Origin: Flavobacteriales bacterium
Lineage (GTDB): Bacteria; Bacteroidota; Bacteroidia; UBA10329
Direction of reading: 5' to 3'
Length of the DNA: 34,921 nt
Assembly (NCBI GenBank): GCA_021739625.1
Contig: JAIPBJ010000028.1
Location: 1-34,921 of the forward strand
Under the pieces are notes generated by a model. That model was not told where the DNA came from, did no database searches, and saw nothing but the letters and a program-made list of their open reading frames with translations. Positions 387-26,885 of the stretch are shown here, piece after piece. The position numbers and the translations under genes were made by a program. Numbering within the stretch: the stretch's first letter is position 1; the number at the start of each line of letters is the position of its first letter.

Positions 387-459
387 GTAAAGCTTGCGTA
401 GAGTGTGTCAAAACTAACAGAAAAAGAAACAGCCCCGCCCTACGCTACAATCGCCCCTT

Positions 460-1694: not shown

Positions 1695-1715
1695 AGACCC
1701 ACTGTTTCAGGAGTG

Positions 1716-1723
1716 CAAATGTA
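1716..1723 (-). promoter_or_regulatory. Bacteroidota -7 promoter box (TACATTTG) for the ArsC-like/EamA operon
   Basis: On the minus strand TACATTTG is an exact match to the Bacteroidota -7 consensus TAnnTTTG and lies 21 bases before the ATG at 1694. I see no clear -33 TTTG. The region 1695-1810 is shared with the divergent lipoprotein gene. Confidence 0.5.
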
Positions 1724-1810
1724 GGCTTGCAGAAAATGGGGACGGCCTTCGGAACAGAGACTCACCCGTGCGGTCGCGAAATAAAACTGTACTTTTCCCG
1801 TTGTTGGGCC

Positions 1811-2965: not shown

Positions 2966-3037
2966 TCACGACTCATTGCTACTGGGGTTGATGCCGTGTC
3001 ACCGTCCCGATGTTCCTTACTTTCGGGCCACCACCCC

Positions 3038-4219
3038 ATGGCCTATCGCGCACAGGACCTTGTCCACACACTGAGTCCACGCAGAATCCTCATCCCGATC
3101 GCCATCGGCCTCATCGTGGTGTCTTTCATGCTCTACCACAGCCTCAGTCAGGAGCGGTTCGCAGAGGCGGGGCCTGCGACCGCCACACACAGCTGGGTGG
3201 ATCTCAATGCCGATGGCGAACAGCAGACGGAAGAGTTCTTCCCGGCCGTGGCGAATGGCACCCACATCCGCATCACCTACCGCGACATCCTTGCGGGCAT
3301 CGAGTGGACCACCGCGTCCTATTTCTGGATACTCATCGCCTTTGTGATGATGCTGCTGCGTGATGGTGCCTACATGTACCGCATCCGCCTGCTCACCGAC
3401 AGGGCCATCTCGTGGCGCAAAAGCTTTGATGTCATCATGCTCTGGGAATTCGCCTCTGCCATTTCGCCTTCCGTGGTGGGCGGCACTGCGGTCGCGCTCT
3501 TCATTCTCAACAAGGAGGGCGTGAATGCGGGCAAGAGCACCGCCATCGTGTTCATCACCGCCCTTCTGGACGAACTGTTCTATGTGCTGATGGTGCCGTT
3601 GCTCATCCTCGTGGTCGGCACTGCGCAGCTGTTCCCTGTCGCCATGACCATGGAGGTCTTCGGCACCACACTGGGCACAGCGGGCATCTTCGTCATGGCC
3701 TATCTCGTTCTGGCCGCCTACTCACTGCTGCTCATCTATGGCATCTTCATGAATCCGAGGGGATTCAAATGGCTCATCATAAAGGTCTTTTCACTTCCGC
3801 TGCTCCGCAAATGGCGTCCGTGGGCCAACCGCACAGGCGATGAGATGCTGGTCGCCTCCACCGAATTCCGTGGCCGCCCGTGGGGATTCTGGCTCAAGGC
3901 CTACGGGGCCACCGTCATCAGTTGGACGGGCCGCTTCTGGGTCGTCAACTTCATCATCCTCGCCTTCACGCCCGTGGGCCAACACCTGCTCATCTACGCC
4001 CGTCAACTCGTCATGTGGAGCATCCTGCTGCTCTCGCCCACGCCCGGTGGCAGCGGTTTCGCAGAGCTGGCCTTCACCGGATTCTTCAAGGATTTCATTC
4101 CCCTCGGTCTGGCCGCCTCGCTCGCCCTCATCTGGAGGCTCATCAGTTACTATCCGTACCTCTTCATCGGCACTGTCGTGTTACCTCGCTGGCTCAGGCG
4201 GGTCTATCAGCAGGGCTGA
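3038..4219 (+). CDS. UPF0104/YbhN-like integral membrane protein (lysylphosphatidylglycerol synthase TM-type)
   Basis: A 393-residue polytopic protein of the lysylphosphatidylglycerol synthetase transmembrane (UPF0104, YbhN/AglD-like) family. Supporting features are the multiple long membrane helices, 'SAISPSVVGGTAVALFILNKEGV' in the middle (the family's 'SxxxPxxxGG' element) and 'SPTPGGSGFAELAF' near residue 340, the family's most recognisable motif. A ~60-residue loop after the first helix (Asp/Gln-rich) probably lies outside. The MprF catalytic domain is absent, so this is the flippase-like half only. ATG 3038 is preferred; an in-frame GTG at 2996 would add 14 residues without adding sense. 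It precedes the alpha-2-macroglobulin gene by 78 bases in the same direction. Confidence 0.85.
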   Translation: MAYRAQDLVHTLSPRRILIPIAIGLIVVSFMLYHSLSQERFAEAGPATATHSWVDLNADGEQQTEEFFPAVANGTHIRITYRDILAGIEWTTASYFWILIAFVMMLLRDGAYMYRIRLLTDRAISWRKSFDVIMLWEFASAISPSVVGGTAVALFILNKEGVNAGKSTAIVFITALLDELFYVLMVPLLILVVGTAQLFPVAMTMEVFGTTLGTAGIFVMAYLVLAAYSLLLIYGIFMNPRGFKWLIIKVFSLPLLRKWRPWANRTGDEMLVASTEFRGRPWGFWLKAYGATVISWTGRFWVVNFIILAFTPVGQHLLIYARQLVMWSILLLSPTPGGSGFAELAFTGFFKDFIPLGLAASLALIWRLISYYPYLFIGTVVLPRWLRRVYQQG

Positions 4220-4264
4220 TTGTGTACGTTTTCAGAGCTTTCACGACCTTATGGATTCTCCCTA

Positions 4265-4282
4265 CTTTCAGCATCCTGAAAG
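4265..4282 (+). promoter_or_regulatory. Perfect 7-bp hairpin upstream of the alpha-2-macroglobulin start
   Basis: CTTTCAG-CATC-CTGAAAG forms a perfect 7-bp stem with a 4-base loop, ending 15 bases before the ATG at 4298. No T-run follows, so it does not look like a strong intrinsic terminator for the upstream gene. It could be a leader structure; role is inference. Confidence 0.35.
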
Positions 4283-4297
4283 GCAAAACATACCTAC

Positions 4298-7200
4298 ATG
4301 CGTCATTCCGTTCTTCTCCTGATTCTTTGCATTTCATCGCTGTTCGCCCACGCCCAGACCTACGATGACCTCTGGAAGGAGGTGGACAACCTCACCAACC
4401 TCGGCCAGCCGCGCTCTGCGTTGGAGAAGGCAGAGCAGATACACCGCAAGGCCGCGCAGGAGGACAACGGTGTGCAGCTCATCAAGGCCGTGATCCATGA
4501 GGTGAAATTCAGTGCGCACTTCGAGGAGGAGAGCCTGGTGCTGAGCATCGGGCGGTTGGAGGACGAGGTGAAAGTGCTGCCTGCCCCCACGCGGCAGGTG
4601 CTGCATTCGCTGCTGGGCGAGATGTACTGGGCCTATTGGCAGAACAACAGTTGGCAGATTCGTCAGCGCACCTCCACCACGGTGCAGGGCGAGGGGCTGC
4701 TCTCGTGGGACTTCGACCGCATCGTCCGCATGGCCGACAGCCATTTCGCGCGTTCGCTGGAAGGGGCGGACACGTTGCGCAGCGCAAAACTCAAGGACTA
4801 CGCGCCCATCCTTGCTGGAGATGACCGCTACCGCGACCTGCGGCCCACATTGTATCATCTGCTACTGTCCCGTGCCCTTGATTTCTATGGTTCTGAGGAG
4901 GCCGACCTTGTCAATTTCGACCTCGCAGGCACGTTCGACCACCCCGACCTGCTGGCCGATGCCGATAGCTTCCTCCGCTGGAAACCCACGGATGGCGGGG
5001 AACTCCGCCCTGCGCAGCGCACCATCCACCTGATGCAGGAACTGCTCCGCGAAGCAAGGAAGACCAGTCCACAGGCTGGGACGGTGGAAGACCTCAGACG
5101 CCTCGCCCTCATGCACCGCAGGTCGCAGCGGGACGACCGCGATGCCCGCTACGAATCTGCCCTACGTGCGCTTCTGGGAAAGACAAAAGACCTTCCTCTT
5201 CAAGCAGATATCACCGCCCAGCTCGCGGAGCATCTTTTCAATCTCGGCAGCAATGCCAACAGCCCTTCCGACAGCCTCTATCTCCATTGGAAACTGGCCT
5301 ACGACCTGTGTGACGCAGCAGTGAAGGCCCTCCCGAAGGAGGAGAAGGGCAGTATCGGGGCGGTGAACTGCCTCGCGGTGATGTCAAACATCACGCAGCG
5401 CGATTGGAACATGGCTGCCGAAGGCGCGGTGCTGCCCCACAAGCCGTTCCGTTTCCTGATGAATTACCGCAACGTGGGCGCTGCCTCGGCCAAGAACTGG
5501 CCCGTCCATGTCCGCGTGGCGCGTCTCGACCCACTGCATTACCGCAGCAGTGCTCGCCAGAATTACGGGGAGAAACTCACCGAGTGGCTGCTCAAGAACA
5601 GCGTGACCGTTTCCACCCAACAGTTCGACCTGCCCAACCCGCAGGATTTCCGCGCCCACAGCATCGAGCTGCCGCTGGCGGGGCTGCCCATCGGCACCTA
5701 CGTCATATTCGCGGCCACCGATAAGGATTTCAGGACGAAGGGCGAGGCGGTGGCCCACGCCATCGTCACCGTCACCGACCTCACGTTGCTCAAGCGGCAG
5801 GAATCGGACGGCAACACACGCCTCGTAGTGCTGACCCGCGATGGCGGCCAGCCCGTGAAGGGTGCGCGCATCGAGCTGCTCGAATCGTCCTATGACCGCA
5901 ACACACGGGGCTACGCCTACCGTCTCAAGAGCACCCTCACCACCGATGCGCGGGGCGAGGCGGTGTTCAAGACAGGCGGCACGGGTTATGGCAGCCTGAT
6001 GGTCGATGTCTATACGGACGGTGACCGCCTCATCGCGGCCGACAATGTCCACACCTACCGCAACGTGGAGGACGAGCGGTGGAACGACCAGACGCAGTTC
6101 TTCCTCGATCGCGCCATCTATCGCCCTGGGCAGGTCATCCATTTCAAGGGGCTGATGATGCGCAGCAATGGCAAGGATGTGGAGCGCGTGAAGGACAGGA
6201 ACACCACCGTCCGCCTCTTCGATGTCAACGGGCAGGAGGTGAGCCAGTTGGAGGTGCGCACGAACGCATTCGGCACGTTCTCAGGCACTTTCATCGCGCC
6301 CACGGGCGGGCTGAACGGCTTTCTGCGCATCGGCAATGAGCACGGATCCATCAGTTTCAGGATGGAGGAATACAAACGGCCGAAGTTTGAGGTGAAGCTG
6401 GACGCGCCCACTGCCCAGTTCCGCGTGGGCGACACGGTGGCGGTGCAGGGCATGGCGGTGTCCTACGCGGGCATACCGCTCGATGGGGCCGAGGTGCGCT
6501 ACCGTGTCACACGCACAGCCCGTTTCCCCTACCCGTGGCGGTGCTGGGGCTGGATGCCGCAGAGCAACCCCAAGCAGGTAGCGTACGGCACGGCCACAAC
6601 CGATGCCACGGGCACGTTCACCGTCCGTTTTGAAGCGCAGCCCGACCCGCTGGTGCGCCCATCGCGCTACCCCGTGTTCACCTACACCATCGAGGCCGAC
6701 ATCACCGACCGCAGCGGGGAGATGCAGACGGGCAGCAGCGCGGTCTCCGTGGGCTACCACGCGCTGGATGTGAATGTCTCCGTGCCTTCTTTCATCGAGA
6801 AAAGCGAACTGAAAAGCTATCCCGTGCGGGCCACCAACCTCTCGGGGCAGGAGCAGGACGCGGAGGTGAAAGTGACGGTGTGGCAACTGGGCCCCAACGA
6901 CCGCATCCTCCGCAGGCGGCAGTGGCAGAAGCCCGACCAGCAGCATCTCTCGGAGAAAGAATACCGAGCAATGTTCCCCAACGAGCCATTCGCGGACGAG
7001 CACGACCCGCAGACGTGGGAAAAGGCCACCAAGGCGCTGGAGACCACCGTGCGCACGGGCAAGGACGGCCAGCTCGACCTCTCATCGCTCCAGCGTGGCA
7101 GCCTCAGCCATTACCTCATTGAGCTGACGGCCACTGACGCCTTCGGCAAGGAGGTGACGCAGAAGGCCTTCTTCCAACTATTTGATAAGGATGGAAAAAC

Positions 7201-10200
7201 GCCCGCAACACCCGTGACCTCTTGGACGCACCTGATGCAGGAGACGCTGGAACCCAACGACACGCTGAAGCTGCTTGTGGCATCGTCCTACCCTGATATG
7301 CGGTTTCTGTTGGAGGTGGAGGTACGCGGCTCGGGCGTGCGCACCAACCGCATCATCCATTCGGAGGAAATCAATCTGAGCAACGCGCAGCGCATGGTGC
7401 GCATCCCCGTGACCGAGGAGTGGCGCGGCAACGCGGTGGTTCATCTGCGGGCGGTGCGCAACAATGAGCTGCTTGGCAGTACGCACAGCATCAACGTGCC
7501 CTACACCAACAAGCTGTTGGACGTTTCACTGGAGACTTTCCGCAAGGAGATGACCCCGGATGACAAGGAGGAATGGACCCTGCGCATAACTGATAAAAAA
7601 GGAAAGCCCGTGAAGGCCGAGCTGCTCGCCACGATGTACGATGCCTCGCTCGATGTGCTCGCGGCCAACAATTGGTCGTTGAACCCATACCGCTCACTGA
7701 ACCCGCGCCTGCACTGGGGCAGCGGTTCGTTCAACAGTGCGGATGTGCGCGTGTGGGACAGGGACTGGAATGCTTATCCGAAAGGAGGAATGACGCGGGA
7801 GTTTGAGACGCTGAACTGGTTCGGGCACTACTTCGGAGGAAGAAGGCATTCAAACACATATATCGATGGTGTTAAGGTTCGAGGTTCGGCAATTCTTCCA
7901 CAGTCTGCGATGGAGATGGGAGCAGAAATGATGGAGATGGAAGTCAATGACCACGATACATTTAAAGCAGAGACATCATCGCGAAAAGATGCACCAATGG
8001 CAACAGGAGGAGTACCTGCACAGTTTGGTGATGAATCGGGAGGAACTGTCAATGAACCAGCCCCCGAAATCAAACTTCGCTCCGATTTCAGCGAGACGGT
8101 GTTCTTCCATCCGCATCTCACCACGGATGATTCGGGGAAGGTGAGCATCGTGTTCAATGCGCCACAGAGCCTGACGCGGTGGAAGTTCATGGGCCTTGCT
8201 ACCACCGAGGACCTGAGCATCGGCATGGTCACCGAGGAGGTGGTCACCCGCAAGCTGCTGATGGTCACGCCCAACTATCCGCGCTTCGTGAGGGAAGGAG
8301 ATAAACTGCGATTTCAGGTGAAGGTGGATGTTGTGGATTCGACCGTTGCGGAGGTGAATGCAAGTTTGGAGGTGAAGGATGGGCTGACGGGGGAAGAAAG
8401 TTTAAGGTTTAAAGTTCAAAGTTTAAGGTTGGAGGGAAGCAGTGCCGTCTTTCATTGGGAACTGGAGATTCCCGAAGGGATTTCGGCATTGACGTTCACG
8501 GTGAAGGCGTGGGGGAAATCGGCCTCTGTAATGCATACGGACGGGGAGGAGAAGACCATCCCCGTGCTGCCCAACCGCATGTTGGTGACCGAGGCCATGC
8601 CGCTGCCCGTGCGCGGCAAGGGGACGCATGATTTCACGTTCTCCAAACTGTTGAACAATGATTCCCCGACCCTGCGTCACCACAACCTGACACTGGAATT
8701 CACGCCCAACCCCATCTGGCTGGCAGTGCTCGCGCTGCCCTACATGATGGAGTATCCGCACGAATGCGCGGAGCAGATATTCAGCCGTTTCTACGCCAAT
8801 GCCATCGGCACGCACCTCGCCAACAGTGACCCTGCCATCAAGCGGGTGTTCGACCAGTGGAAGCGCGATGCGGAAACAGGGCAGGGCAATGTCTTCCAAT
8901 CGCAACTTGACAAGAATCCTGAGCTGAAACAGGCCCTGTTGCAGGAGACCCCGTGGGTGCGCGATGCGCAGGACGAGGCGGAGCAGCGCAGGCGCATCAC
9001 CGAGCTGTTCGACACGGAGCGCATGGCGCGGGAGCTGACGGAATCGCTCCGCAAACTTCAACAGCAACAACAGGCAGATGGCGGCTGGGGCTGGTTCAGC
9101 GGCCTCCGCAGCGACCTCTACATCACGCGGCACATCGTGATGGGTTTTGGCAAGCTGAGGAAAATGGGCGTTTGGGAACCTGATGCCGCATCAATGAAGA
9201 TGCTCCGCAACGCGATCGAATTCATGGACAGCGAACTGGTGGCATACTACGAACGCGTGAACATGAAGGACAAAGAGCGAATCCCAGACTGGTTTGAGCT
9301 GCATTCGATGTATGCTCGGTCGTTCTTCCTCGCGGATTTCAAACCCACGGGCAGGGCGAAGGCCATCTACGAGGACATGCTATCACGCATCAAGCAGCAC
9401 TGGACGAAGTTCGATGCCACCCAGAAGGGCATGGCGGCTGTGATCCTGCACCGCAATGGCATGGCGAAGGACGCGGCACAGCTCATCGTCTCCCTCCGCG
9501 AGACCGCGCTGACCAGCGAGGAGTTCGGTACTTACTGGGCCATGGAAAAGGGCTACTACTGGCATCAGGCGCCCATCGAGAACCACGTGATCATCCTGGA
9601 GGCGTTCCATGAGGTGGCGAACGATGTCGCGATGGTCGATGAGATGAAGATATGGCTGCTGAAACAGAAGCAGACGCAGAACTGGAAGACCACCAAGGCC
9701 ACGGCCGAGGCGTGTTACGCGCTGCTGGGCATGGGCAGCCGCGACCTGAACACGCAGCCGAATGTGAGCATCCGCATCGGCAGTGAGACCATCGACCCGA
9801 GCAAGGACAGGGATCTGAAAACGGAAGCGGGCACAGGCTACTTCAAGACCAACTGGTCGGGCAAATCCATCACTCCTGACATGGGCCGTGTGACCGTGAC
9901 CAAGGACAGCGAGGGCGTGGCCTGGGGAGCGGTCTATTGGCAGTATTTCGAGAATCTCGACAAGATCACGGGCGTGGATGACAACCCCATCAAGATGAAG
10001 CGCGAGGTGATGCTGCGCGAGGATACGCCCAACGGACCGCTGCTTCGCCCTCTTACCGATGGCGCAAAACTGAAGGTGGGCGACCGTGTGCAGGTGCGGA
10101 TCGTGCTGGAAACCGACCGCCACATGGAATACGTGCATCTGAAAGACATGCGTGCCGCCAGTTTCGAACCGCGCGAACAGCTCTCTGGCACGGCCTATCA

Positions 10201-10405
10201 GGAGGGGATGGGCTACTACCGCAGCACGACCGATGCGGCCATGCACTTCTTCTTCAGCTACATGCCAAAGGGCACGTTCGTGTTCGAGTACGGCCTCAAC
10301 GTGACGCAGGCGGGGGATTTCAGCAACGGCATCTCACAGCTGCAGTGCATGTACGCGCCTGAATTCACAACCCATAGTGAGGGGGTGAGGGTGAGGGTGG
10401 AGTGA
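4298..10405 (+). CDS. Alpha-2-macroglobulin family protein with intact thioester
   Basis: A 2035-residue protein with a signal peptide (MRHSVLLLILCISSLFAHAQ). Bacterial alpha-2-macroglobulins trap proteases that cleave a bait region, which exposes a reactive internal thioester. Residues ~20-380 look alpha-helical; an MG2-type domain carries FLDRAIYRPGQ near residue 608; an A2M domain starts with SDFSETVFFHPHL near 1263. The thioester motif CAEQ is at 1490-1493 in YPHECAEQ, followed by ADGGWGWFSG near 1590 in the helical thioester domain. The residues that form the thioester (Cys, Gln) are intact. No lipobox is visible, unlike E. coli YfhM, so it may be periplasmic or surface-released. The presumed bait region (1180-1260) is lower in GC and holds a TonB-plug-like segment. 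The usual pbpC partner is not adjacent; the 3' end is duplicated downstream. Confidence 0.93.
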   Translation: MRHSVLLLILCISSLFAHAQTYDDLWKEVDNLTNLGQPRSALEKAEQIHRKAAQEDNGVQLIKAVIHEVKFSAHFEEESLVLSIGRLEDEVKVLPAPTRQVLHSLLGEMYWAYWQNNSWQIRQRTSTTVQGEGLLSWDFDRIVRMADSHFARSLEGADTLRSAKLKDYAPILAGDDRYRDLRPTLYHLLLSRALDFYGSEEADLVNFDLAGTFDHPDLLADADSFLRWKPTDGGELRPAQRTIHLMQELLREARKTSPQAGTVEDLRRLALMHRRSQRDDRDARYESALRALLGKTKDLPLQADITAQLAEHLFNLGSNANSPSDSLYLHWKLAYDLCDAAVKALPKEEKGSIGAVNCLAVMSNITQRDWNMAAEGAVLPHKPFRFLMNYRNVGAASAKNWPVHVRVARLDPLHYRSSARQNYGEKLTEWLLKNSVTVSTQQFDLPNPQDFRAHSIELPLAGLPIGTYVIFAATDKDFRTKGEAVAHAIVTVTDLTLLKRQESDGNTRLVVLTRDGGQPVKGARIELLESSYDRNTRGYAYRLKSTLTTDARGEAVFKTGGTGYGSLMVDVYTDGDRLIAADNVHTYRNVEDERWNDQTQFFLDRAIYRPGQVIHFKGLMMRSNGKDVERVKDRNTTVRLFDVNGQEVSQLEVRTNAFGTFSGTFIAPTGGLNGFLRIGNEHGSISFRMEEYKRPKFEVKLDAPTAQFRVGDTVAVQGMAVSYAGIPLDGAEVRYRVTRTARFPYPWRCWGWMPQSNPKQVAYGTATTDATGTFTVRFEAQPDPLVRPSRYPVFTYTIEADITDRSGEMQTGSSAVSVGYHALDVNVSVPSFIEKSELKSYPVRATNLSGQEQDAEVKVTVWQLGPNDRILRRRQWQKPDQQHLSEKEYRAMFPNEPFADEHDPQTWEKATKALETTVRTGKDGQLDLSSLQRGSLSHYLIELTATDAFGKEVTQKAFFQLFDKDGKTPATPVTSWTHLMQETLEPNDTLKLLVASSYPDMRFLLEVEVRGSGVRTNRIIHSEEINLSNAQRMVRIPVTEEWRGNAVVHLRAVRNNELLGSTHSINVPYTNKLLDVSLETFRKEMTPDDKEEWTLRITDKKGKPVKAELLATMYDASLDVLAANNWSLNPYRSLNPRLHWGSGSFNSADVRVWDRDWNAYPKGGMTREFETLNWFGHYFGGRRHSNTYIDGVKVRGSAILPQSAMEMGAEMMEMEVNDHDTFKAETSSRKDAPMATGGVPAQFGDESGGTVNEPAPEIKLRSDFSETVFFHPHLTTDDSGKVSIVFNAPQSLTRWKFMGLATTEDLSIGMVTEEVVTRKLLMVTPNYPRFVREGDKLRFQVKVDVVDSTVAEVNASLEVKDGLTGEESLRFKVQSLRLEGSSAVFHWELEIPEGISALTFTVKAWGKSASVMHTDGEEKTIPVLPNRMLVTEAMPLPVRGKGTHDFTFSKLLNNDSPTLRHHNLTLEFTPNPIWLAVLALPYMMEYPHECAEQIFSRFYANAIGTHLANSDPAIKRVFDQWKRDAETGQGNVFQSQLDKNPELKQALLQETPWVRDAQDEAEQRRRITELFDTERMARELTESLRKLQQQQQADGGWGWFSGLRSDLYITRHIVMGFGKLRKMGVWEPDAASMKMLRNAIEFMDSELVAYYERVNMKDKERIPDWFELHSMYARSFFLADFKPTGRAKAIYEDMLSRIKQHWTKFDATQKGMAAVILHRNGMAKDAAQLIVSLRETALTSEEFGTYWAMEKGYYWHQAPIENHVIILEAFHEVANDVAMVDEMKIWLLKQKQTQNWKTTKATAEACYALLGMGSRDLNTQPNVSIRIGSETIDPSKDRDLKTEAGTGYFKTNWSGKSITPDMGRVTVTKDSEGVAWGAVYWQYFENLDKITGVDDNPIKMKREVMLREDTPNGPLLRPLTDGAKLKVGDRVQVRIVLETDRHMEYVHLKDMRAASFEPREQLSGTAYQEGMGYYRSTTDAAMHFFFSYMPKGTFVFEYGLNVTQAGDFSNGISQLQCMYAPEFTTHSEGVRVRVE
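7859..8053 (+). other. TonB-plug-like segment inside the alpha-2-macroglobulin (residues ~1188-1252)
   Basis: In frame within the macroglobulin, YIDGVKVRGSAILPQSA is followed ~35 residues later by TGGVPAQFGDESGGTVN. Both closely resemble consecutive parts of the plug domain of Bacteroidota TonB-dependent receptors, where 'IDGVxVxGSxxLPxSAIExVxVxTGGxPAxYGDxxGG' is continuous. Here they are split by a Met/Glu-rich linker (MEMGAEMMEMEVND). The DNA is visibly more AT-rich than its surroundings. The similarity is from memory of the family, not an alignment. Confidence 0.55.
8399..8430 (+). repeat. Short low-complexity direct repeat within the alpha-2-macroglobulin gene
   Basis: AGTTTAAGGTT occurs at 8399-8409 and again at 8420-8430, a 21-base period in an AT-rich, TTTAAAG/TTTAAGG-like stretch. 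It is translated in frame (about ESLRFKVQSLRLEGS) between MG domains and differs strongly in composition from neighbouring codons. It may be a dispersed intragenic repeat that was tolerated in frame. Confidence 0.5.
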
Positions 10406-10464
10406 CGAGGCTTCCGTGCAGACCAACAGATAGGGGCTTCTGTTCTGAATTATTGGATGAAGGT
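10289..10464 (+). repeat. Repeat copy A: 3' end of the alpha-2-macroglobulin gene plus its downstream flank
   Basis: This ~176-base segment spans the last 38 codons of the macroglobulin (from YGLNVTQAGDF to the stop at 10403-10405) and ~59 bases beyond. It is repeated at 11945-12120 (copy C), with shared landmarks including GGCTTCCGTGCAGAC and TTCTGTTCTGAATT after the stop. A shorter decayed version is copy B (10595-10679). Confidence 0.85.
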
Positions 10465-10567
10465 TCGAAAGAATTGGATGCTTCATCAAATACTTTTGAT
10501 GACTGTTCCAAAGAATTGGAAGCTTGTTCAAATGATTTGGAAGCTTGACCTGAAACTTCAGATGAAT
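10442..10567. repeat. Degenerate 21-bp tandem array, six units
   Basis: Units start at 10442, 10463, 10484, 10505, 10526 and 10547, each 21 bases. The best conserved pair is GTTCCAAAGAATTGGAAGCT and GTTCAAATGATTTGGAAGCT. Read on the minus strand they encode heptads such as QASNSLE, QSSKVFD and EASNSFE. Copy C carries only about two units at the equivalent place (from 12098), so the copy number varies. The enclosing minus-strand open frame has no recognisable gene signals, so I list it as repeat DNA. Confidence 0.75.
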
Positions 10568-10594
10568 CCCACCCTGAAACCTCATCCTCGAAGG

Positions 10595-10679
10595 GCGATT
10601 TCTGCAACGGCATCTGATAGCTGCAGCGCATGAACGCCTGAGTTCACCAGGCATAGTGAGGGGGTGAGGGTGGAGTGAG
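10595..10679 (+). pseudogene. Repeat copy B: decayed fragment of the alpha-2-macroglobulin 3' end
   Basis: The sequence GCGATTTCTGCAACGGCATCT...CATAGTGAGGGGGTGAGG aligns with the macroglobulin tail from GDFSNGI to the stop. Unlike copy C it carries amino-acid changes, in-frame stops and a small deletion relative to copy A. It is therefore a decayed non-coding fragment. It sits between the 21-bp array and the low-GC T9SS gene, ~150 bases upstream of that gene's start. Confidence 0.7.
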
Positions 10680-10829
10680 CAGATTTCACTTTTTCATTGA
10701 ATCCGCTAAATTTGACGGGGTGGTCCTTTAAACACTTGAGATTCCGAAAACGTGAAAACGATTCCGTCAAACCTGTATAATTGGAACCGCACCTACTGAA
10801 GTGTAGGATTGAATTTGAATCGAGACAAA

Positions 10830-11942
10830 ATGAAAAAGCTCTTTTACTTGATGTTCATTTGGGTTTTGACGAGTGCATCTGTCTATGGTCAAGGGATGCC
10901 TGTTCCGCCTACCAAGCTGGCAAAGGGATGTTTCAGAGACAGCACCATCACCTACGATGGGAAAGGCAATTTATCAGCGAAACGATTGTTTCTACACAAT
11001 GATAAAGGGTTTTTGGAAGTCGAGTTTTTTTACAGGTGGAGAGGAGGTACTTGGTGGGAGGACGGTATTACTACTTTTGGTTATGACCGAAGGGGAAATG
11101 TTATAGAAATCATAAAGGAACGAACCAGTCAATACGATTGCTCTCTGGGCGAATACTCCATTTTTAGTTATGATAAATTGAACCGAATGACTTCAAACAC
11201 TTTTCATAGGGGTAATGGCCAGTATTGGGAAAAGGAAAAGGAAGCTACTTATACACATGATTCAACGGGAAATGTGGTGGAGTCAGTTTTACGCATGTGG
11301 AGAGAAGATTTGACCATTGTTAAGATGGCTCATACATATGATTCGGTCGGAAATGAAACCCACAGTATCGGCCTTAAACGTATTGGGAATGATTGGGAAA
11401 ATTCCAGCCAGAAATCGGTCATCTATGACAGAGGAGGAAACAAGGTTGAGGAAATTTCCCAAGTATGGCGTGATGGCACGTGGAACAACTACTCGCGCAA
11501 CCAGTATTTGTATGATTGGAACGGAAATCAGATAGAGGAAGTCCAATTGACTTGGAGCATGGGCGATTGGAAGAATCTGGGCAGACTGGTCACCACCTAC
11601 GATTTACATGGTAATGCGAATCGAGTTCTTCATCATTCTTGGAACGGTAGCGATTGGTATGTTCAATTCGATGTTCAACGTCACTACGGTTGTATGCCCT
11701 TCGGTAAGAGCGGTTACAGGGAATTGAAGCTTTGGCCCAACCCATCGGTTGGCGAGTTGAACATCCGTGTAGAAGGGAAATACCAGCCTTCGTCTGTGAC
11801 AGTGATAGCGATGAATGGTCAGCGTATGCTTCAACAGCCATTCACACCAAAGTTAAATGTCGAGACGCTGGCAACTGGTTCATACATTGTGGAGGTTGTC
11901 GCTGGTAGCAACATACACCGAGCGCAATTCATTAAGAAGTGA
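10830..11942 (+). CDS. T9SS-secreted YD-repeat-like protein
   Basis: The ATG at 10830 gives a signal peptide (MKKLFYLMFIWVLTSASVYGQ); the frame opens at a TTG further upstream that I reject. The 370-residue product carries repeats of the YD/RHS kind: TYDGKGN, GYDRRGN, TYDSVGN, IYDRGGN, LYDWNGN and TYDLHGN, alternating with Trp-rich strands (WENSSQ, GTWNNYS, GDWKNLG). The last ~75 residues are a type A T9SS sorting domain: LWPNPSVGELNIRV, then NGQRMLQ, then LATGSYIVEV and HRAQFIKK. It is therefore likely exported through the outer membrane and displayed or released. GC is much lower than in both neighbours, and the gene lies exactly between macroglobulin-tail copies, suggesting insertion. A candidate -7 box TAAATTTG lies at 10707-10714. 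Function unknown. Confidence 0.85.
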   Translation: MKKLFYLMFIWVLTSASVYGQGMPVPPTKLAKGCFRDSTITYDGKGNLSAKRLFLHNDKGFLEVEFFYRWRGGTWWEDGITTFGYDRRGNVIEIIKERTSQYDCSLGEYSIFSYDKLNRMTSNTFHRGNGQYWEKEKEATYTHDSTGNVVESVLRMWREDLTIVKMAHTYDSVGNETHSIGLKRIGNDWENSSQKSVIYDRGGNKVEEISQVWRDGTWNNYSRNQYLYDWNGNQIEEVQLTWSMGDWKNLGRLVTTYDLHGNANRVLHHSWNGSDWYVQFDVQRHYGCMPFGKSGYRELKLWPNPSVGELNIRVEGKYQPSSVTVIAMNGQRMLQQPFTPKLNVETLATGSYIVEVVAGSNIHRAQFIKK

Positions 11943-11944
11943 GA

Positions 11945-12120
11945 TACGGCCTCAACGTGACGCAGGCAGGCGATTTCAGCAACGGCATCTCACAGTTGCA
12001 GTGCATGTACGCGCCTGAGTTCACCACGCATAGTGAGGGGGTAAGGGTGCGGGTGTAGTGAGGGGGCTTCCGTGCAGACGGACAAATGGGGTCTTCTGTT
12101 CTGAATTGTTTGACGAAGCT
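11945..12120 (+). pseudogene. Repeat copy C: detached, sequence-conserved alpha-2-macroglobulin 3' end
   Basis: It begins two bases after the stop codon of the T9SS gene and encodes, in frame, the same 37 C-terminal residues as the macroglobulin (YGLNVTQAGDF ... EGVRVRV). Against copy A I count eight codon differences, all synonymous, and then the final GAG (Glu) is TAG, followed by the shared TGA. The non-coding flank continues to match to about 12120. No start codon or upstream body is attached, so it is a gene remnant. The purely synonymous pattern implies it was recently part of a functional macroglobulin gene. Confidence 0.8.
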
Positions 12121-12233
12121 CCAGATAAACTCCTCTCCGAAACCTCGTTCGTAGGGTGATCTTAGGCAATGGCGACTCTGACTTCAGGCGTGTCTGCACT
12201 TTTTCAATGCGCGATGACTGAGGAGAAGGATAA

Positions 12234-13031
12234 TCACTTCGCAATCTTCTCATAAGAAGTCACAATTCCCTTGATGAGGGCAGAACTGAATCCCGCGTGC
12301 TCCATCTCGTTGAGGCCGACAATGGTGCAGCCTTTGGGCGTGGTCACCTTGTCGATCTCCTGCTCGGGGTGACCGCCCTTCTGAATGAGCAGTTGGGCCG
12401 CGCCTTTCACGGTCTGACTCACGATGGCCGTGGCCGTTGCGGCATCGAAACCCACCTCGATGCCGCCCTGGATCATGGCGCGGATGAAGCGCAATGCGTA
12501 AGCGATGCCACAGGCCCCGAGGATGGTGGCCGACTCCATGAGGCTTTCATCAATGATGAGCGACATGCCGATGGTGTCGAAGAGGGCAGTGACCTGCCCA
12601 CGCTGCTGCTGTGTGGCGTCCACCCCACAGATGGCCGTGACCGATTCGCCTACATCGGCAGCGGTGTTGGGCATGGCGCGGAACATGGGCAGTCCCTTGG
12701 GAACATGGGCGGCCATCTGCGCCAGCGTGATGCCTGTGGCCAATGAGATGAGCATTTGGCGCGAGGGGTCCAGCAGCGGGCCAATTTCCTGCAGCATCGG
12801 AGCCACATTGAAAGGTTTCACGGCCAGGATGACCATGTCTGCACCTGCAACCGCATTGCGGTTGTCGGACGTGACCTGTACACCCAACTCTGCAAGAGCG
12901 GCCAATGATCTGAGATTCCTACGTGTGGCAGTGATGTTGGCCGCAGCCACCGTGCCGGAGGCGATAAGTCCATGCGCAATGGCCTGTCCGAGATTTCCAC
13001 AGCCAATGATGGCTATCCGTTGATCGTTCAT
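12234..13031 (-). CDS. proC: Pyrroline-5-carboxylate reductase
   Basis: The 265-residue product reduces 1-pyrroline-5-carboxylate to L-proline with NAD(P)H, the last step of proline synthesis, in the cytoplasm. The start at 13031 gives MNDQRIAIIGCGNLGQAIAHGL, a proper Rossmann GxGxxG motif; longer upstream readings would run into the neighbouring gene. Later hallmarks are MFRAMPNTAA, QTVKGAAQLL and KVTTPKGCTIVGLNEME. The substrate-binding loop usually written GSGPAY reads GACGIAYALRF here, a variant worth noting. The gene begins 17 bases after the DUF5686 gene on the same strand, so they form an operon although their roles seem unrelated. Confidence 0.92.
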   Translation of the reverse strand: MNDQRIAIIGCGNLGQAIAHGLIASGTVAAANITATRRNLRSLAALAELGVQVTSDNRNAVAGADMVILAVKPFNVAPMLQEIGPLLDPSRQMLISLATGITLAQMAAHVPKGLPMFRAMPNTAADVGESVTAICGVDATQQQRGQVTALFDTIGMSLIIDESLMESATILGACGIAYALRFIRAMIQGGIEVGFDAATATAIVSQTVKGAAQLLIQKGGHPEQEIDKVTTPKGCTIVGLNEMEHAGFSSALIKGIVTSYEKIAK

Positions 13032-13048
13032 TTCGAGGTGTTGATGGT

Positions 13049-15730
13049 TCAAAGTCCGAGCTGCACCCGGAAAGCAATCTGTTGGAACTGCGCCTCGCGG
13101 AACGGGAACGCCACATCCACACGGATGATGCGAAAGATGTTCTCGATGCCCACGGTCACCTCCCAATAGTTGCCGAAGTTGGGTTCGTAGAGATAATGGC
13201 CTCCGACCACGGTCTGCCATTTCAATTTCTTGATGAGCGGGATCTTGTTCAGGATTGCTCCGTGAAAGTGATGTTCCAAATGGGCCGAGGCATAAACGTC
13301 ATCGGTGCTGGCGAGATAGTAGGGCAACGCCATGAAACGGTTTAGACCTGTGGGGACGATGTGGATCTCGGAGGTATAGAAGTGCTTGAAATCGGCAAAG
13401 GCGACATTGCGGTCAAAGACGAACCAGCCAGCGTCCACGGCCCATTCCAGTTTGCCACCCATGCCAAGGCTATGGCTGTGGTCGATATCCACTTGCAGGT
13501 AGGAATAGTTGCTCACAGAGCCGCCCACCTCCGGAATCCCCCATTCGTAAGTCATCTTGAACTGTGGCCACTTGCTGCCGAGATTGATCTTGCGGTCTGG
13601 GAATTCGAGGTATTTCTGAAACGGACGGAATCGGGCCGACACCCTCAGTTTCATTGCCCGGTTATCACCGAACCGTGAATTCGAGAAGGTGTATTTCCCG
13701 TTGATGGGAACATTGGCATCGAACTGCCTTCCGTCCCAATTCACATATTGGCCTTCGAGGCCTGTGGCATTCACAAGATTCCTGCGTTCACCGTAGTAGA
13801 GCTGCACTCCGAGATTGATGCCGTTGAACACCTCCATGCCCCATCCGATCTTGCCATACGTCTCGGCATAAAGGCGCGCATAGTTCATCTCGAAAAGAAC
13901 GGTGTAGAGCGAGTTCCAAGAATCGGCCACGGCCTCGTTCTGGAACTGGTTCACATAATGCCCGCCCTCGGCCGAAAGTCTCATTCTGTTGAGTCGGTTG
14001 AACCGGTAGAACACGCTGCCCTTTCCGAAATACCGTCCGGTTGCGAATCCGTACCGGTTCCAGTAGCTCGCCACCAGCCCCGCACTCTTGTCCTCACGGT
14101 ATTTGGAGAAGGTGAGCTTGTGGTCTATGAGGTAGCCTTCGACCGTGTTGAACTGAACGGCCATGAGCGGACTCTGCAGTTCCAACTTCCAGTTCTGCTT
14201 GCTGTTGCTGTACGTGTAGCCATAAAGCAGGTCCTGAATCTTGAAACGGTTGTTCTTGCGGTCCACAGAATCCTTGTAGGCATCGGTCTTCATGACCTGT
14301 TCTATGCTGTCCTTGCGCACATAGTCGTTGACCTCCACCGCAGTGAGCGGAATGGTGCGGATGGAATCCCAGAAGGCATCGCCCTTCGCATTGGCCTCGC
14401 TTTCCACTTTGATAAGGGCGCCCTTGTCCCAGCTCTTGAAGTCGAACGGGGTGGCATCGCCCTCCACGCGGCCCTCCTCTTCAAACTCCCCGTCCACCGC
14501 TGCGGCCTCTGGCGCGCTCTCATGAACGGTGGTGCTGTCCTGTGCCCCAGATTCTGGTTCCTTCGGCAGCAGATCGGCCAATTTCGGGCGGGCGGCAGCG
14601 GGTGCCGGGGCCTCTTGCAGCTTCTTGTTCTTCAGGAACTCATGATAATCCCGGTCGCGGAAATACTTGCGCACACTGTAGTCTGAGAAGGTACTGGTGA
14701 AGGTGCCATAGCCCTGAACCTTCAGAAGTTTCACATTGAAAGCAAAGTCGAACGTGAGGGTTCCCTTGAGCCAGAGATCGGGGGTAATGGGGACAAAATT
14801 GGCCCGCAGGCGCACCGTGTCCACATAGTCTATGCCCGATTCGGAGGTGAGGAGCACATCGGCCGAATGAATGCGCCACGTGTTCTCCTGAATGAAGAGG
14901 AAGCCCTTGAACAGCGGCACGCCTTTGACACGCGGCAGCAGCTCGATGCGATTGACGATGACCGAATCCTCGACATAGAAACCCGCATAGCGGAAACGGT
15001 AATAGAGGGTGGCAGAGGGCGAGAGGGGCGAAACGAGGTCGCGGTTGCTCAACCCTTCGAGACTGAACATCTTGTCGTAGAAATTGAATTCGAGGCTGGT
15101 GGCGTTGTTCCAAGTGAAGCCCTGCGACTTACCGCTGACCTTGGAGGCGATGACCCGCTCCTTGGACTTTCCGGGCGCCTTGTAATGGTACTCGGAAACG
15201 CTCTCGGAGAGGTAGATGATTCCACTACGGGTAGAGTCGAGCCCGCCCACATCAATGCTGCGGCCCAGCACGCGCTTGGGGAGGTTCTTCACAAAGTTGG
15301 TTCCCTTCACATAGACCTTGCAGGAGTATTCCTGCACCTGCTGCCGATAGAACTCACGCTTTTCGCGGGCCAGGCGCATGACGCGGTAGGCGGGGTCCTC
15401 GCTACCATCGGCCACGGCCTCGCCCAGCTCGAAGATGACGCGTTTCATGACCACATCGAGGCGGCTGTCGGCATTGAGGGTGAGGGGCCGCACCTCGGTG
15501 CCATAGCCCACAAACCGGAACACGATGACATGGTATCCCTGTTTCAGCTCCAACTGATAACTTCCCTCGGCATTGGTGGTGGTGCCGATGGTGGTGCCCT
15601 CAACATAGACCGTTGCAAAACCCACGGGCAGCCCTTCCTTATCGGTGACAGTGCCACGCACGGTGAATGCCGAGACGATGGTCGGCATCAGGAACAGGAA
15701 GGACAGCAGGAGGGGGTTCAATGGCCGCAT
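13049..15730 (-). CDS. DUF5686 outer-membrane protein with carboxypeptidase-like regulatory domain
   Basis: An 893-residue Bacteroidota-specific protein. After the signal peptide (MRPLNPLLLSFLFLMPTIVSAF) residues ~23-105 form a carboxypeptidase-like regulatory domain (VRGTVTDKEGLPVGFATVYV ... NAEGSYQLEL). DUF5686 follows, marked by AYRVMRLAREKREFY and QEYSCKVYVKG near 120-145. The C-terminal third is rich in alternating aromatic strands (YFGKGSVFYRFNRLNRMRL, EWAVDAGWFVF) and ends with the strand FQQIAFRVQLGL, as expected for an outer-membrane beta-barrel. A low-complexity linker with APAPAAARPK and Glu runs lies around 380-440. The family's function is unknown. It is the promoter-proximal gene of the pair with proC; a one-mismatch -7 box (TACCTTAG) precedes it. 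Confidence 0.9.
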   Translation of the reverse strand: MRPLNPLLLSFLFLMPTIVSAFTVRGTVTDKEGLPVGFATVYVEGTTIGTTTNAEGSYQLELKQGYHVIVFRFVGYGTEVRPLTLNADSRLDVVMKRVIFELGEAVADGSEDPAYRVMRLAREKREFYRQQVQEYSCKVYVKGTNFVKNLPKRVLGRSIDVGGLDSTRSGIIYLSESVSEYHYKAPGKSKERVIASKVSGKSQGFTWNNATSLEFNFYDKMFSLEGLSNRDLVSPLSPSATLYYRFRYAGFYVEDSVIVNRIELLPRVKGVPLFKGFLFIQENTWRIHSADVLLTSESGIDYVDTVRLRANFVPITPDLWLKGTLTFDFAFNVKLLKVQGYGTFTSTFSDYSVRKYFRDRDYHEFLKNKKLQEAPAPAAARPKLADLLPKEPESGAQDSTTVHESAPEAAAVDGEFEEEGRVEGDATPFDFKSWDKGALIKVESEANAKGDAFWDSIRTIPLTAVEVNDYVRKDSIEQVMKTDAYKDSVDRKNNRFKIQDLLYGYTYSNSKQNWKLELQSPLMAVQFNTVEGYLIDHKLTFSKYREDKSAGLVASYWNRYGFATGRYFGKGSVFYRFNRLNRMRLSAEGGHYVNQFQNEAVADSWNSLYTVLFEMNYARLYAETYGKIGWGMEVFNGINLGVQLYYGERRNLVNATGLEGQYVNWDGRQFDANVPINGKYTFSNSRFGDNRAMKLRVSARFRPFQKYLEFPDRKINLGSKWPQFKMTYEWGIPEVGGSVSNYSYLQVDIDHSHSLGMGGKLEWAVDAGWFVFDRNVAFADFKHFYTSEIHIVPTGLNRFMALPYYLASTDDVYASAHLEHHFHGAILNKIPLIKKLKWQTVVGGHYLYEPNFGNYWEVTVGIENIFRIIRVDVAFPFREAQFQQIAFRVQLGL

Positions 15731-15788
15731 GAATGCTTGGCGCTAAGGTAAGGTGCAATACAAACCATCAGAAGGCCGCCTACGTCAC

Positions 15789-16466
15789 TCAGAGCGCCCC
15801 ACCCATAAAGCGCATCATCTCCTCGGCTTTGGGATAGATGAAGAAATGCCCGCCATCGAACCTTTGCAGCCTCAGCGGAAACATGGATTCCTGCTGCCAG
15901 TCGCGGACAGAGGAGACGAGGGCGGTCTCCTGCGAGCCGAACATCACGGTGATGGGCACCGCGAGCGGCTCGTGGTCCAGATACCTGTAACTGTCAATGG
16001 CAGCGATGTCGGCACGTAGCATGGGCAGTATGATGCGCAGCAGCTTCGGCTCGTCCAGCACTGCGGGCGGCAGGCCACCGAGGGTGCGCATGTGGGCGAT
16101 GAACTGCTCATCGGTCATGGTGCCGCGATGGCGGTCGTGGTGGTGCGCGGGGGCGGGGAAACTGCTCAGGAAAAGGTGCTGCGGCAGGGGCCTGCCCGTT
16201 TCTGCGAGGCGGTGCGTGAGCAGATAGGCCAGCATGGCGCCCATGCTATGGCCGTAAATGGCATACGGCCCCTTCACCATCTCATCGAACTGCGCGAGAT
16301 AGCACCCTACGATGGCATGGATGTCGGTCAATGGCGGTTCGCTGATGCGCGTGCCCTTGCCGGGCTGGGTCATGGAGACCATCTCCCATCCCTTTGGCAG
16401 AAATGGCCGGAGGAATCCGTAGGAGGTCTCGTTGCCACCGGCAAAGGGGAGGGTGAGGAGGAGCAT
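15789..16466 (-). CDS. Type II thioesterase (alpha/beta hydrolase, GrsT/SrfA-D-like)
   Basis: A 225-residue alpha/beta hydrolase of the thioesterase family that removes aberrant acyl groups from carrier proteins in non-ribosomal peptide or polyketide synthesis. Visible marks are LPFAGGNETSY at the N-terminus (the family's 'PxAGG' opening), the nucleophile elbow YGHSMGAMLAY with the catalytic Ser near residue 74, the lid segment MRTLGGLPPAVL, and RFDGGHFFIY with the catalytic His near 208. Length matches type II enzymes. No peptide- or polyketide-synthase gene is in the window; the nearest lipid gene is the desaturase 86 bases upstream on the same strand. Its true carrier-protein partner is unknown. 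Confidence 0.85.
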   Translation of the reverse strand: MLLLTLPFAGGNETSYGFLRPFLPKGWEMVSMTQPGKGTRISEPPLTDIHAIVGCYLAQFDEMVKGPYAIYGHSMGAMLAYLLTHRLAETGRPLPQHLFLSSFPAPAHHHDRHRGTMTDEQFIAHMRTLGGLPPAVLDEPKLLRIILPMLRADIAAIDSYRYLDHEPLAVPITVMFGSQETALVSSVRDWQQESMFPLRLQRFDGGHFFIYPKAEEMMRFMGGAL

Positions 16467-16505
16467 GAGAAATAGGAAAATGGGGAAATGGTAAACATGG
16501 AAATG

Positions 16506-16556
16506 GTAGGGACGCGATGCAGGTTCCCACCGGAGCGGGTCTGCACCTCCGACTAC
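16506..16556. repeat. Imperfect inverted repeat between desaturase and thioesterase genes
   Basis: GTAG (16506) pairs with CTAC (16553), TGCAG (16518-16522) with CTGCA (16541-16545), and inner CCC with GGG around a CGGA loop, giving a ~50-base interrupted hairpin. Its end overlaps the desaturase stop codon. Without a T-run it may be a REP-like element or an attenuator rather than a classical terminator. Confidence 0.4.
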
Positions 16557-17515
16557 TGTATGGCTCCCAACGCGATGGCCGTGTCTGGGCTGTCGGGCAC
16601 ATCGGCCACCCAGTCCTGAGAGAAATCCTCTGCCGGGGGCATGGCGATGGGGTTGCCAAGGTAGTCCGACCGCTTGCCGGGCCAGACGTGGGTGCGCCAG
16701 AGGTAGGCGATGAGCGAGGGCTGGTCGAGGTTGGGGTGGCAGTGGGGCTTCACCTCACGGGCGTGGTACTCAGGATAGAGGCTCCAATGCACCTCTGGCC
16801 GCATGTGGTGGATGGCGTGATAGCCGTTGTTGAAGGTGAGTATGTTGAAAAGCCTGCCCGTGAAGTTGCGCGAGTGGTTGTAGGGGTGAGTGTGGTCGCA
16901 GCCATCGTGCTGCCAATAATTGGTGCCGAAGATGCCCCAGGTGGCATAGAAGTTCGGGATGATGAGGATGAGCACCGCCAGCTTCCAGTCGATGATGAGC
17001 AGGGCGATCTTGAGTCCAAAGACCACAAAGGCCTCCATGGCATACTGCCGTGCCCAGCGCGGCTTCACCTTGCGCATCTTCTTGACGAACCGCTGCTCTG
17101 CGGCCATGATCTCGAACATCAACAGGAAGAAGAAGAAGGCCTGGTTGAGGATGTTCCACCGGAAGCGGGCGCGGGTGGTGCGGGCCGAGTCCATCGGGGT
17201 CTGCAGGTGCTTGTGGTGGCTCAGGTTGTGGCCGGGCACAAAACCGCTGACAGGATGGCCATGCACACCAGAGAGCAGCATCTGGAACATCCGGTTGAGA
17301 AGCAGGCTGTGGAACAGCGGTACGTGCACGGTATTGTGGACAATGGTGGCCACGCAGAACTGATAGCAGCAGTTGACGGCCACCACGGCCACGACCCACG
17401 GCCAAGTGAGCTGTGGGATGGCCCACCAGCTCGCGGCCATCAGTGCCGCGCAGCCCAGCACGGTGAGCAGCGTGAGCACATCGGCCCTATAACGGAAGAT
17501 ACCCTTTGTCTCCAT
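16553..17515 (-). CDS. Fatty-acid desaturase-family membrane di-iron enzyme
   Basis: A 320-residue membrane protein with the three histidine boxes of the desaturase/hydroxylase superfamily: HNTVH (~residue 60), HNLSHHKH (~96-103) and NGYHAIHH (~230), plus an extra His-rich stretch WQHDGCDHTHPYNHS. Such enzymes use a di-iron centre and O2 to introduce double bonds or hydroxyls into lipid chains. Hydrophobic helices lie between boxes as expected. The precise substrate (acyl-lipid, carotenoid or amino lipid) cannot be decided. It begins 39 bases beyond the nhaA stop and is followed by the type II thioesterase, a pairing that could point to acyl-carrier-bound substrates. Confidence 0.87.
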   Translation of the reverse strand: METKGIFRYRADVLTLLTVLGCAALMAASWWAIPQLTWPWVVAVVAVNCCYQFCVATIVHNTVHVPLFHSLLLNRMFQMLLSGVHGHPVSGFVPGHNLSHHKHLQTPMDSARTTRARFRWNILNQAFFFFLLMFEIMAAEQRFVKKMRKVKPRWARQYAMEAFVVFGLKIALLIIDWKLAVLILIIPNFYATWGIFGTNYWQHDGCDHTHPYNHSRNFTGRLFNILTFNNGYHAIHHMRPEVHWSLYPEYHAREVKPHCHPNLDQPSLIAYLWRTHVWPGKRSDYLGNPIAMPPAEDFSQDWVADVPDSPDTAIALGAIQ

Positions 17516-17554
17516 GCTGTCAATGAAGGGGCAATTATAGGAAATCTATAACCG

Positions 17555-18877
17555 TTATACCTTGACCACTGGCAGCCGTCTCAGCAGCAGATAGCCGGCC
17601 GTGCCCCCGATGAGCGAGGCGATTAGGATGCCCATCTTGGCCTGCAGGATGAACTCGGCCTGCCCCTTGAAGGCCAGCTCGGTGATGAACAGCGACATGG
17701 TGAACCCCACCGAGGCCAGAAGGGCCGCCCCCAGCAGATGGCGCCAGCCGCAGTGCTCCGGAAATCCGGCCCACTTGAGGCGCAGCATCAGCCAGCATAT
17801 TCCCATGATGCCCGCCACCTTGCCCACCAGCAGCCCGAAGATGACACCCAGCGTAACGGGGCTGGCCAGTTGCGACAGCACCCCGCTGGGGAAAGTGACC
17901 CCGGCATTGGCGAGCGCGAACACGGGCATCACAAAATAGGCCACGAAGGGGTGCATGCGGTGCTCCAACCGCTGCAACGGGGTGAGGGCCTGCTTGGTCA
18001 CAGTGCGGATCTCTTCGAGCACGTGCAACTGCTCGTGGGTGACCAGCGTGACATCGTTGGGCGCTGCACGGTCGAAACGGGTCACCAGTGCGTTGATGCG
18101 CTGCATGAATCCCTTGTCAGAGACCTTGACATTGGCCGGAATGGTGAAAGCCGCCAGCACGGCCGCAATGGTGGCATGAACCCCCGACATGAGGAACGCC
18201 AGCCACAGCCCGCCAATGCCCAGCATGGCATACCACACCACATTGCGCACCCCGAGCAGATTGGACCCGATGAGCACCACCATGAAGCCCGCGCCCACGG
18301 CCAGGCTTATGAAGTCGATGTTCGATGTGTAGAAGAACGCGATGACCAGCACGGCACCGAGGTCATCGGCAATGGCGAGGGCGGTGAGGAATATCTTGAG
18401 GCTCAGCGGCACCCGCTTGCCCAGCAGATGGATGATGCCGAGGGCAAAGGCGATGTCGGTGGCCATGGGGATGCCCCAGCCGTCATTCGTGTCGCCCGAA
18501 AGGTTGAAGGCCAGATAGACGAGCGCGGGGAGTAGCATGCCCCCCACTGCGGCCGCTATGGGCAGCACCGCATCGCGCGGATTGCTCAGTTCGCCCGCCA
18601 TGATCTCGCGCTTCAGCTCCAGCCCTATCACAAAGAAGAACACGGCCATCAGACCATCGTTGATCCAATGGTGCAGCGTCTTGCTGATGAGGAAATCATC
18701 GAACCCTACCGAAAGCTCATGTTGCCAAAGGTGATGATAGCCATCGGCCCAAGGCGAATTGGCCACGATCAGGGCGATGAGGGCCGACACGAAAAGCACG
18801 ATGCCACTGGTGGTGGACCGCCCAAGGAAACCCGCCAGCGGGTCGATGAGCCAGATGTCTATCGGTGCTTTCTTCAT
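17555..18877 (-). CDS. nhaA: Na+/H+ antiporter NhaA
   Basis: The 440-residue protein matches the NhaA family over its full length. NhaA exchanges cytoplasmic Na+ (or Li+) for external H+ across the inner membrane for pH and salt homeostasis. Seen directly are HHWINDGLMAVFFFVIGLELK, ATDIAFALGIIHLLG with the conserved Asp of helix IV, and ALAIADDLGAVLVIAFFY, whose adjacent Asp pair is the ion-binding/transport site. The cytoplasmic loop and C-terminal helices (SVGFTMSLFITELAF) are also present. The gene is divergent from the MATE transporter, with only 29 bases between start codons. A near-match -7 box (TATCTTCG) ends four bases before the ATG. Confidence 0.95.
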   Translation of the reverse strand: MKKAPIDIWLIDPLAGFLGRSTTSGIVLFVSALIALIVANSPWADGYHHLWQHELSVGFDDFLISKTLHHWINDGLMAVFFFVIGLELKREIMAGELSNPRDAVLPIAAAVGGMLLPALVYLAFNLSGDTNDGWGIPMATDIAFALGIIHLLGKRVPLSLKIFLTALAIADDLGAVLVIAFFYTSNIDFISLAVGAGFMVVLIGSNLLGVRNVVWYAMLGIGGLWLAFLMSGVHATIAAVLAAFTIPANVKVSDKGFMQRINALVTRFDRAAPNDVTLVTHEQLHVLEEIRTVTKQALTPLQRLEHRMHPFVAYFVMPVFALANAGVTFPSGVLSQLASPVTLGVIFGLLVGKVAGIMGICWLMLRLKWAGFPEHCGWRHLLGAALLASVGFTMSLFITELAFKGQAEFILQAKMGILIASLIGGTAGYLLLRRLPVVKV

Positions 18878-18906
18878 TCCACGAAGATACCATTGAGCGT
18901 TTTGTC

Positions 18907-25811: not shown

Positions 25812-25827
25812 CGTTTCACGTGGAACA
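25812..25827. promoter_or_regulatory. parS site 2, overlapping the methyltransferase start codon
   Basis: CGTTTCACGTGGAACA begins one base after the mnmG stop codon. Reverse-complemented it is TGTTCCACGTGAAACG, one base from the degenerate parS consensus TGTTNCACGTGAAACA. The central CACGTG includes the GTG (25820) that starts the next gene. The two parS sites are 1.9 kb apart. Confidence 0.8.
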
Positions 25828-26734: not shown

Positions 26735-26843
26735 AAGATGCCTTCTGTGCCATGATGTGGCATGATTGGCACTGGGAGTCCGGCTGAGCGGAGAAGATGC
26801 ATCAGAACGCATCTATGTGGGTCGATTATCCGTACCCATAAAC

Positions 26844-26858: not shown

Positions 26859-26885
26859 ATTTATTCTCATGAAATCTCCGAAGTG

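Follow-up and report, generated by a model that had tools for sequence, protein, structure and literature searches.

A displaced, silently diverged macroglobulin gene end beside an inserted gene in a Flavobacteriales bacterium

Described insertions and the anatomy of the locus

At icd of Escherichia coli, prophage e14 has replaced the end of the gene with an alternative allele that carries mainly silent differences, and the original end lies beyond the insert. The locus described here lies in a window of 34,921 nucleotides (the whole stretch of DNA analysed) from a 3.69-Mb assembly of 179 contigs; it shares this sequence pattern, whereas the integrase and the prophage of icd/e14 are both absent from it. 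Insertion with long target duplication is another close parallel. According to later papers, this type of insertion is reported mostly for restriction-modification genes in Helicobacter (Nobusato et al., 2000, via PMC1643837, PMC3154945, PMC3031569), and a review of toxin-antitoxin (TA) systems, citing the same study, likens restriction-modification to TA systems with regard to addiction and mobility (PMC2654758). The window is similar in placing an accessory-type gene between long direct target repeats without a transposase or integrase, and it differs in that its repeats diverge almost only synonymously and its cargo is T9SS-sorted.

Partial anchor duplications are also known from laboratory crosses of E. 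coli, where single crossovers of end-trimmed, recircularised molecules generate duplications of 109-950 bp and true homology-facilitated illegitimate events are rarer (PMC3240628). Like the window, these events show homology at one end, a non-homologous joint at the other and a partial duplication of the anchor, but they involved identical sequence, whereas the anchor in the window is diverged and the event itself is read from sequence alone. A similar route has been proposed for sequential displacement at T6SS effector loci of Vibrio cholerae (PMC5361080). There, as may be the case here, modules enter via a conserved anchor and older ends are pushed downstream in repeated rounds (compare copy B, below); the displaced parts in Vibrio are immunity genes or effector ends under selection, whereas the displaced tail in the window has no evident function. 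Transformation, furthermore, can create merodiploids (PMC3784515). Our literature search for TA modules with truncated target copies returned nothing useful.

The alpha-2-macroglobulin-family gene of the window encodes a product of 2035 aa with MG2, bait-region, A2M and bMG10 domains (Pfam), and its end is present three times (Table 1). Copies A and C align over 174 bp without gaps at 89.1% identity (E about 1e-60), and this repeat spans the last 38 codons, the stop and 57 bp of 3' noncoding DNA. Copy B, described as decayed in the initial annotation, indeed carries stops and a 2-bp deletion, and is 85% identical to A and 88% to C. Past copy C, a weaker match duplicates the start of B: positions 10556-10612 (spacer and start of B) align with 12119-12173 at a score of 21, against a best score of 16 in 300 shuffles. 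The A/C homology thus appears to continue past C into a remnant of B, probably to about 12174, so that two tail-spacer-B units probably flank one cargo gene. The length of the flanking direct repeats is 174 bp at 89%, and probably about 230 bp with gaps. Both this match and the 57 bp of homology beyond the stop codon were absent from the initial annotation. No further tail copies occur elsewhere in the 3.69-Mb genome, which rules out a REP-like genome-wide repeat family.

Table 1. Features of the window, and displaced ends at other genes in related bacteria
Feature	Position or locus	Strand	Basis or remark
Alpha-2-macroglobulin-family gene, host of the tail	4298..10405	+	ORF, Pfam; one per genome in the genus
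Copy A, real gene end (to 10405) and 57 bp of 3' noncoding DNA	10289..10462	+	
A+T-rich spacer, unit 1 only	10463..10555	+	GC 0.36; degenerate 21-bp tandem repeat
Copy B, decayed tail	10593..10672	+	frame broken, stops
Cargo gene, 370 aa	10830..11942	+	weak RHS/YD repeats; T9SS type A C-terminal sorting domain
Copy C, displaced tail and 57 bp of the same 3' noncoding DNA	11945..12118	+	coding part 11945-12061
Probable remnant of spacer and start of copy B, unit 2	12119..12173	+	alignment versus shuffles
Convergent proC-type gene (pyrroline-5-carboxylate reductase), downstream of unit 2	12234..13022	-	Pfam P5CR_dimer
Eco57I-type methylase	G000:C59, L088		cargo weakly Abi-like, below cut-off
dnaG	G008, L100		cargo: HTH gene and PIN gene
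MoxR-like AAA ATPase	G008, L090		PIN-like pair by inspection, no Pfam match
F420-dependent reductase	G008, L158		IS200-like transposase domain
pfkA	G004, L153		4-gene island
Displaced tail	L147		no cargo
Displaced tail	L195		outside the genus

The cargo gene stops 2 bp before copy C, which lies in another frame, so that C is not read as an extension of the cargo protein. This joint is sharp, with no homology upstream of it and homology on the tail side, and no microhomology was found at the joints. The GC3 of the cargo is 0.48 versus 0.78 for the host gene, although low GC3 is also seen in genes at the window's far end. No orthologue of the cargo was found in the genus; its other matches were partial repeats or sorting domains. 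The T9SS-sorted ORF lies alone between the tails in the window, with no integrase or recombinase gene beside it.

Silent divergence between the displaced tail and the gene end

The initial annotation held that C encodes the same 37 residues as the real gene end, with eight synonymous changes, no replacement and a last codon turned into a stop, and a codon-by-codon comparison confirms each of these points. Copies A and C share the residues YGLNVTQAGDFSNGISQLQCMYAPEFTTHSEGVRVRV with 0 replacements. The synonymous changes fall in the codons at 10310, 10313, 10340, 10361, 10367, 10370, 10385 and 10394, and the last sense codon, at 10400, is changed from GAG to TAG (E to stop) in copy C. Within the 37 codons, 8 of about 24.7 synonymous sites have changed and none of about 86.3 nonsynonymous sites; the dN/dS comparison that the annotation had proposed as a check gives dN=0 and dS=0.43, with an upper bound on omega of about 0.08. 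Past the stop codon, the homologous 3' noncoding DNA differs at 10/57 sites (17.5%), and the difference from 0/86 at nonsynonymous sites is pronounced (Fisher p=6e-5).

These counts bear on the possibility of a fresh target duplication, in which the cargo entered one site, the resident tail was duplicated on either side of it and C then drifted freely. The anatomy of the window, an insert between long direct target repeats of variable length, is that of insertion with long target duplication as published (PMC1643837, PMC3031569). Nevertheless, such an origin is unlikely for the window, given the absence of nonsynonymous changes next to the noncoding ones and the outcome of a passive-decay simulation in which A was constrained and C was free from the start. 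Under this model 5.8 of the 9 changed codons are expected to be nonsynonymous and one, the stop, is observed (P=0.0018), a value that becomes P=0.02 if the displaced copy is given 30% of the mutations and P=0.058 if it is given only 20%. With this caveat on the share of mutations, decay of C as a passive copy is rejected, in agreement with the earlier argument that a passive duplicate would have gained replacements. The synonymous-only divergence of the repeats, together with the noncoding divergence, points to diverged alleles and not to copies made at insertion. Subject to the same caveat, the simulation and the Fisher test also support the claim that copy C was until recently the end of a functional macroglobulin, a role it would have held during most of the time separating C from A.

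When the changes are polarised against congeneric tails, A is derived at codons 25, 28 and 36, and C at codon 38 (the stop) and probably at 33, the others being ambiguous. Since C carries few changes after polarising, the evidence lies in how few changes it has compared with the noncoding flank, and not in many silent changes on C. The nearest relative (G006) shows 20 differences from A and 17 from C over 111 sites; being slightly closer to C, it gives mild support to C as the resident tail, in which case A may be the import. Of the two alternatives in the initial annotation, a tail imported with the neighbouring cassette is favoured if taken broadly, as a meeting of two diverged alleles on cargo entry, but the part that makes C the newcomer fares less well, G006 being nearer to C.

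Displaced ends at other genes and in congeners

We searched for displaced non-ORF copies within 8 kb of 1493 gene ends and 1370 gene starts, in a sample of about 2.1 Mb from genomes G000, G008 and G004 plus two further genomes from this class. The seed prefilter of the scan misses some weak cases (L090 came from a run without it), names without a Pfam match were given by inspection, and the repeats at L051 and L099, which are local tandem or paralogous, were set aside. Displaced gene ends recur beside inserted genes at several other genes in related bacteria (Table 1), which suggests that such sequence records DNA uptake. Displaced gene starts are found as well (roughly four loci); the process thus extends beyond 3' ends and no 3' bias is claimed. 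Some of the cargo genes are toxin-antitoxin-like, an observation that does not imply enrichment over background.

The ratio of synonymous to nonsynonymous changes is 8:1 in the window, 13:3 at a thiolase gene (G003), 5:1 at dnaG and 5:3 at the MoxR-like gene. The other cases are pfkA (3:2), L195 (4:3), L158 (4:3), L147 (3:2) and the methylase (0:6), whose displaced tail may derive from a less closely related homologue; L258 (4:4) was left out of the pool. Taken together, the nine cases contain 24 nonsynonymous codons versus 44 expected under passive decay (P<1/4000), and the deficit persists without the two strongest cases (P=0.007). Both the pooled value and the thiolase alone (P=0.0013) argue further against fresh target duplication, which could still account for the short comparison cases L153, L195, L158 and L147, all four individually non-significant.

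The downstream side of the macroglobulin is variable among congeners. In G001 and G004 it is followed by a convergent thiolase gene whose stop overlaps the macroglobulin stop, and G005 has an inserted ORF, whose tail is T9SS-like (just under the Pfam cut-off), before the thiolase. In G003 a 309-aa ORF is inserted, accompanied by a displaced copy, 182 bp long, of the 3' end of the thiolase gene itself. In G008 the displaced tail is that of the macroglobulin, followed by a ParE-type toxin gene with a small partner, and G006 has a carboxyltransferase-like ORF (by inspection). All congeners other than G008 have one macroglobulin tail, with downstream neighbours that differ and at a distance too great for a clean empty site. 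L258 is a further displaced macroglobulin tail, with an NTase-HEPN pair between the tails. A second tail of this macroglobulin is seldom seen across the class: among 395 genomes, 172 have the tail and only five have two matches, on different contigs in one of the five. Insertion directed to the overlapping TTAA stops of macroglobulin and thiolase (G001/G004) was considered and dropped, as other junctions give no support.

The initial annotation also offered a lost tandem paralogue, that is, a second full macroglobulin reduced to its last 37 codons with the cargo where its body was. Coding constraint on C until recently is expected under this history, and a duplicate would bring the same 3' noncoding DNA. 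We nonetheless find it improbable, since no relative has a second full macroglobulin of this type (0/8 congeners) and the displaced tails in G008 and L258 are short fragments too. The same pattern occurs, moreover, at unrelated single-copy genes such as dnaG and pfkA, and, with the cargo stop 2 bp from C, the deletion would need to have had its endpoint at precisely that place. Harder still to credit is a gene-end-restoring element, as at icd, that integrated site-specifically with an integrase since lost or acting in trans. Such elements do evolve a gene end swapped for a version with silent differences and an original stranded on the far side, but no integrase or recombinase was found between the window tails or in the other cargo regions examined, except for the IS200-like domain in L158. 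Furthermore, the homology passes the gene end into noncoding DNA and the pseudo-tail, and different genes with unrelated ends are involved. Very unlikely, finally, is an assembly artefact that joined contigs of two co-occurring strains in the MAG and set two strain alleles side by side: the assembly is fragmented and mixed strains would yield silent differences, but A and C are followed by different sequence and are thus more than alternative forms of a single flank, one contig holds the cargo together with both units, and comparable arrangements turn up in several genomes that were assembled independently.

Proposed origin and meaning of the displaced tail

We consider it fairly probable that A and C are two alleles of one gene end, juxtaposed on entry of the cargo in an event anchored by homology and closed by one illegitimate joint. 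A foreign or strain-variable gene, encoding the T9SS-sorted protein, would have entered at the macroglobulin 3' end. The incoming DNA, from a diverged relative and carrying a macroglobulin tail and the cargo, would have paired and recombined in the homologous tail region of the resident gene, and its far end, just past the cargo's stop, would have been joined without homology to the start of the truncated tail. Such a joint could arise through one-ended homology-facilitated illegitimate recombination or through a fragment, trimmed at its ends and recircularised, that integrated by a single crossover. One tail would then complete the gene, while C would be stranded beyond the cargo with its decay only begun (the TAG). 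The source lineages of A and C would have diverged by roughly 20% at neutral sites, and copy B, apparently in both units, may be the scar of an earlier event. What the sequences themselves show is the arrangement of the repeats, their synonymous-only divergence and the recurrence of displaced tails beside inserted genes at other loci; the donor, the recombination route and the choice of resident allele are inferred.

Certain points count against reading A and C as alleles. Neither a donor genome nor an empty-site strain was found, the genus relatives being too distant (their macroglobulins are 61-69% identical in amino acids to that of the window). The simulated probability when C takes only 20% of the mutations and the absence of synonymous changes at the methylase weigh in the same direction, as do the four comparison cases that lack significance on their own and a possible mixed-strain misassembly of the MAG.

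Nothing changes in the function of the macroglobulin. If A and C are indeed alleles, mostly silent displaced gene ends are a readable record of single gene acquisitions without mobile-element machinery. A flanking 'target duplication' can then be an imported allele, each event yields a distance between donor and recipient, and displaced ends can be searched for automatically. We suggest only tentatively, as a rather doubtful generalisation, that gene gain across Bacteroidota works in this way, with small accessory genes and TA modules travelling joined to a conserved gene's 3' end, which would serve as a movable homology arm and take the place of the recipient's own end. The old end would then remain as a dated scar, and its silent differences would show the divergence of the donor. 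The displaced ends could also shed light on the way in which small accessory genes, toxin-antitoxin genes among them, come to settle beside conserved genes.

Unit 1 spacer and base composition

The greater length of unit 1 (copy A, spacer and copy B) relative to unit 2 (copy C and a probable remnant of B) is mostly accounted for by an array of a degenerate 21-bp tandem repeat with consensus TGTTCAAAAGAATTGGAAGCT, which is confined to the unit 1 spacer and, judged by eye, starts at about 10441. Translated in one frame, the repeat gives heptads, among them SKELDAS, SKELEAC and SNDLEA.

GC3 declines along the window, from 0.72-0.87 at 4298-21729 (the left two thirds) to 0.50-0.60 at 23946-31018 (right). 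Because of this drop, a low GC3 is not enough by itself to identify the cargo gene as foreign.

Positions of the repeat and of other features in sampled stretches
Feature	Stretch (genome:contig)	Positions
Degenerate 21-bp repeat	window	10504-10547
Displaced gene start	L172 (G008:C9)	6673-6781
Displaced gene start	L086 (G000:C107)	
Displaced gene start	L060	
Displaced gene start	L189	
Near-identical 3' ends	L099 (G008:C10)	11317-15540
Near-identical 3' ends	L144 (G004:C8)	447-4524

Displaced gene starts

The displaced starts, of 56-112 bp and 76-97% identity, are located upstream of intact genes and form the mirror image of displaced tails.

Near-identical 3' ends of neighbouring genes

Three genes in a row in L099 (~377, 476 and 470 aa) have common 3' ends, with DNA 97-98% identical across the final 118-227 bp and differing upstream parts. 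L144 is a second cluster of this kind, in which three same-strand neighbours have near-identical 3' ends (44-298 bp, 95-98%). The identical ends of the adjacent L099 genes perhaps reflect module swapping.
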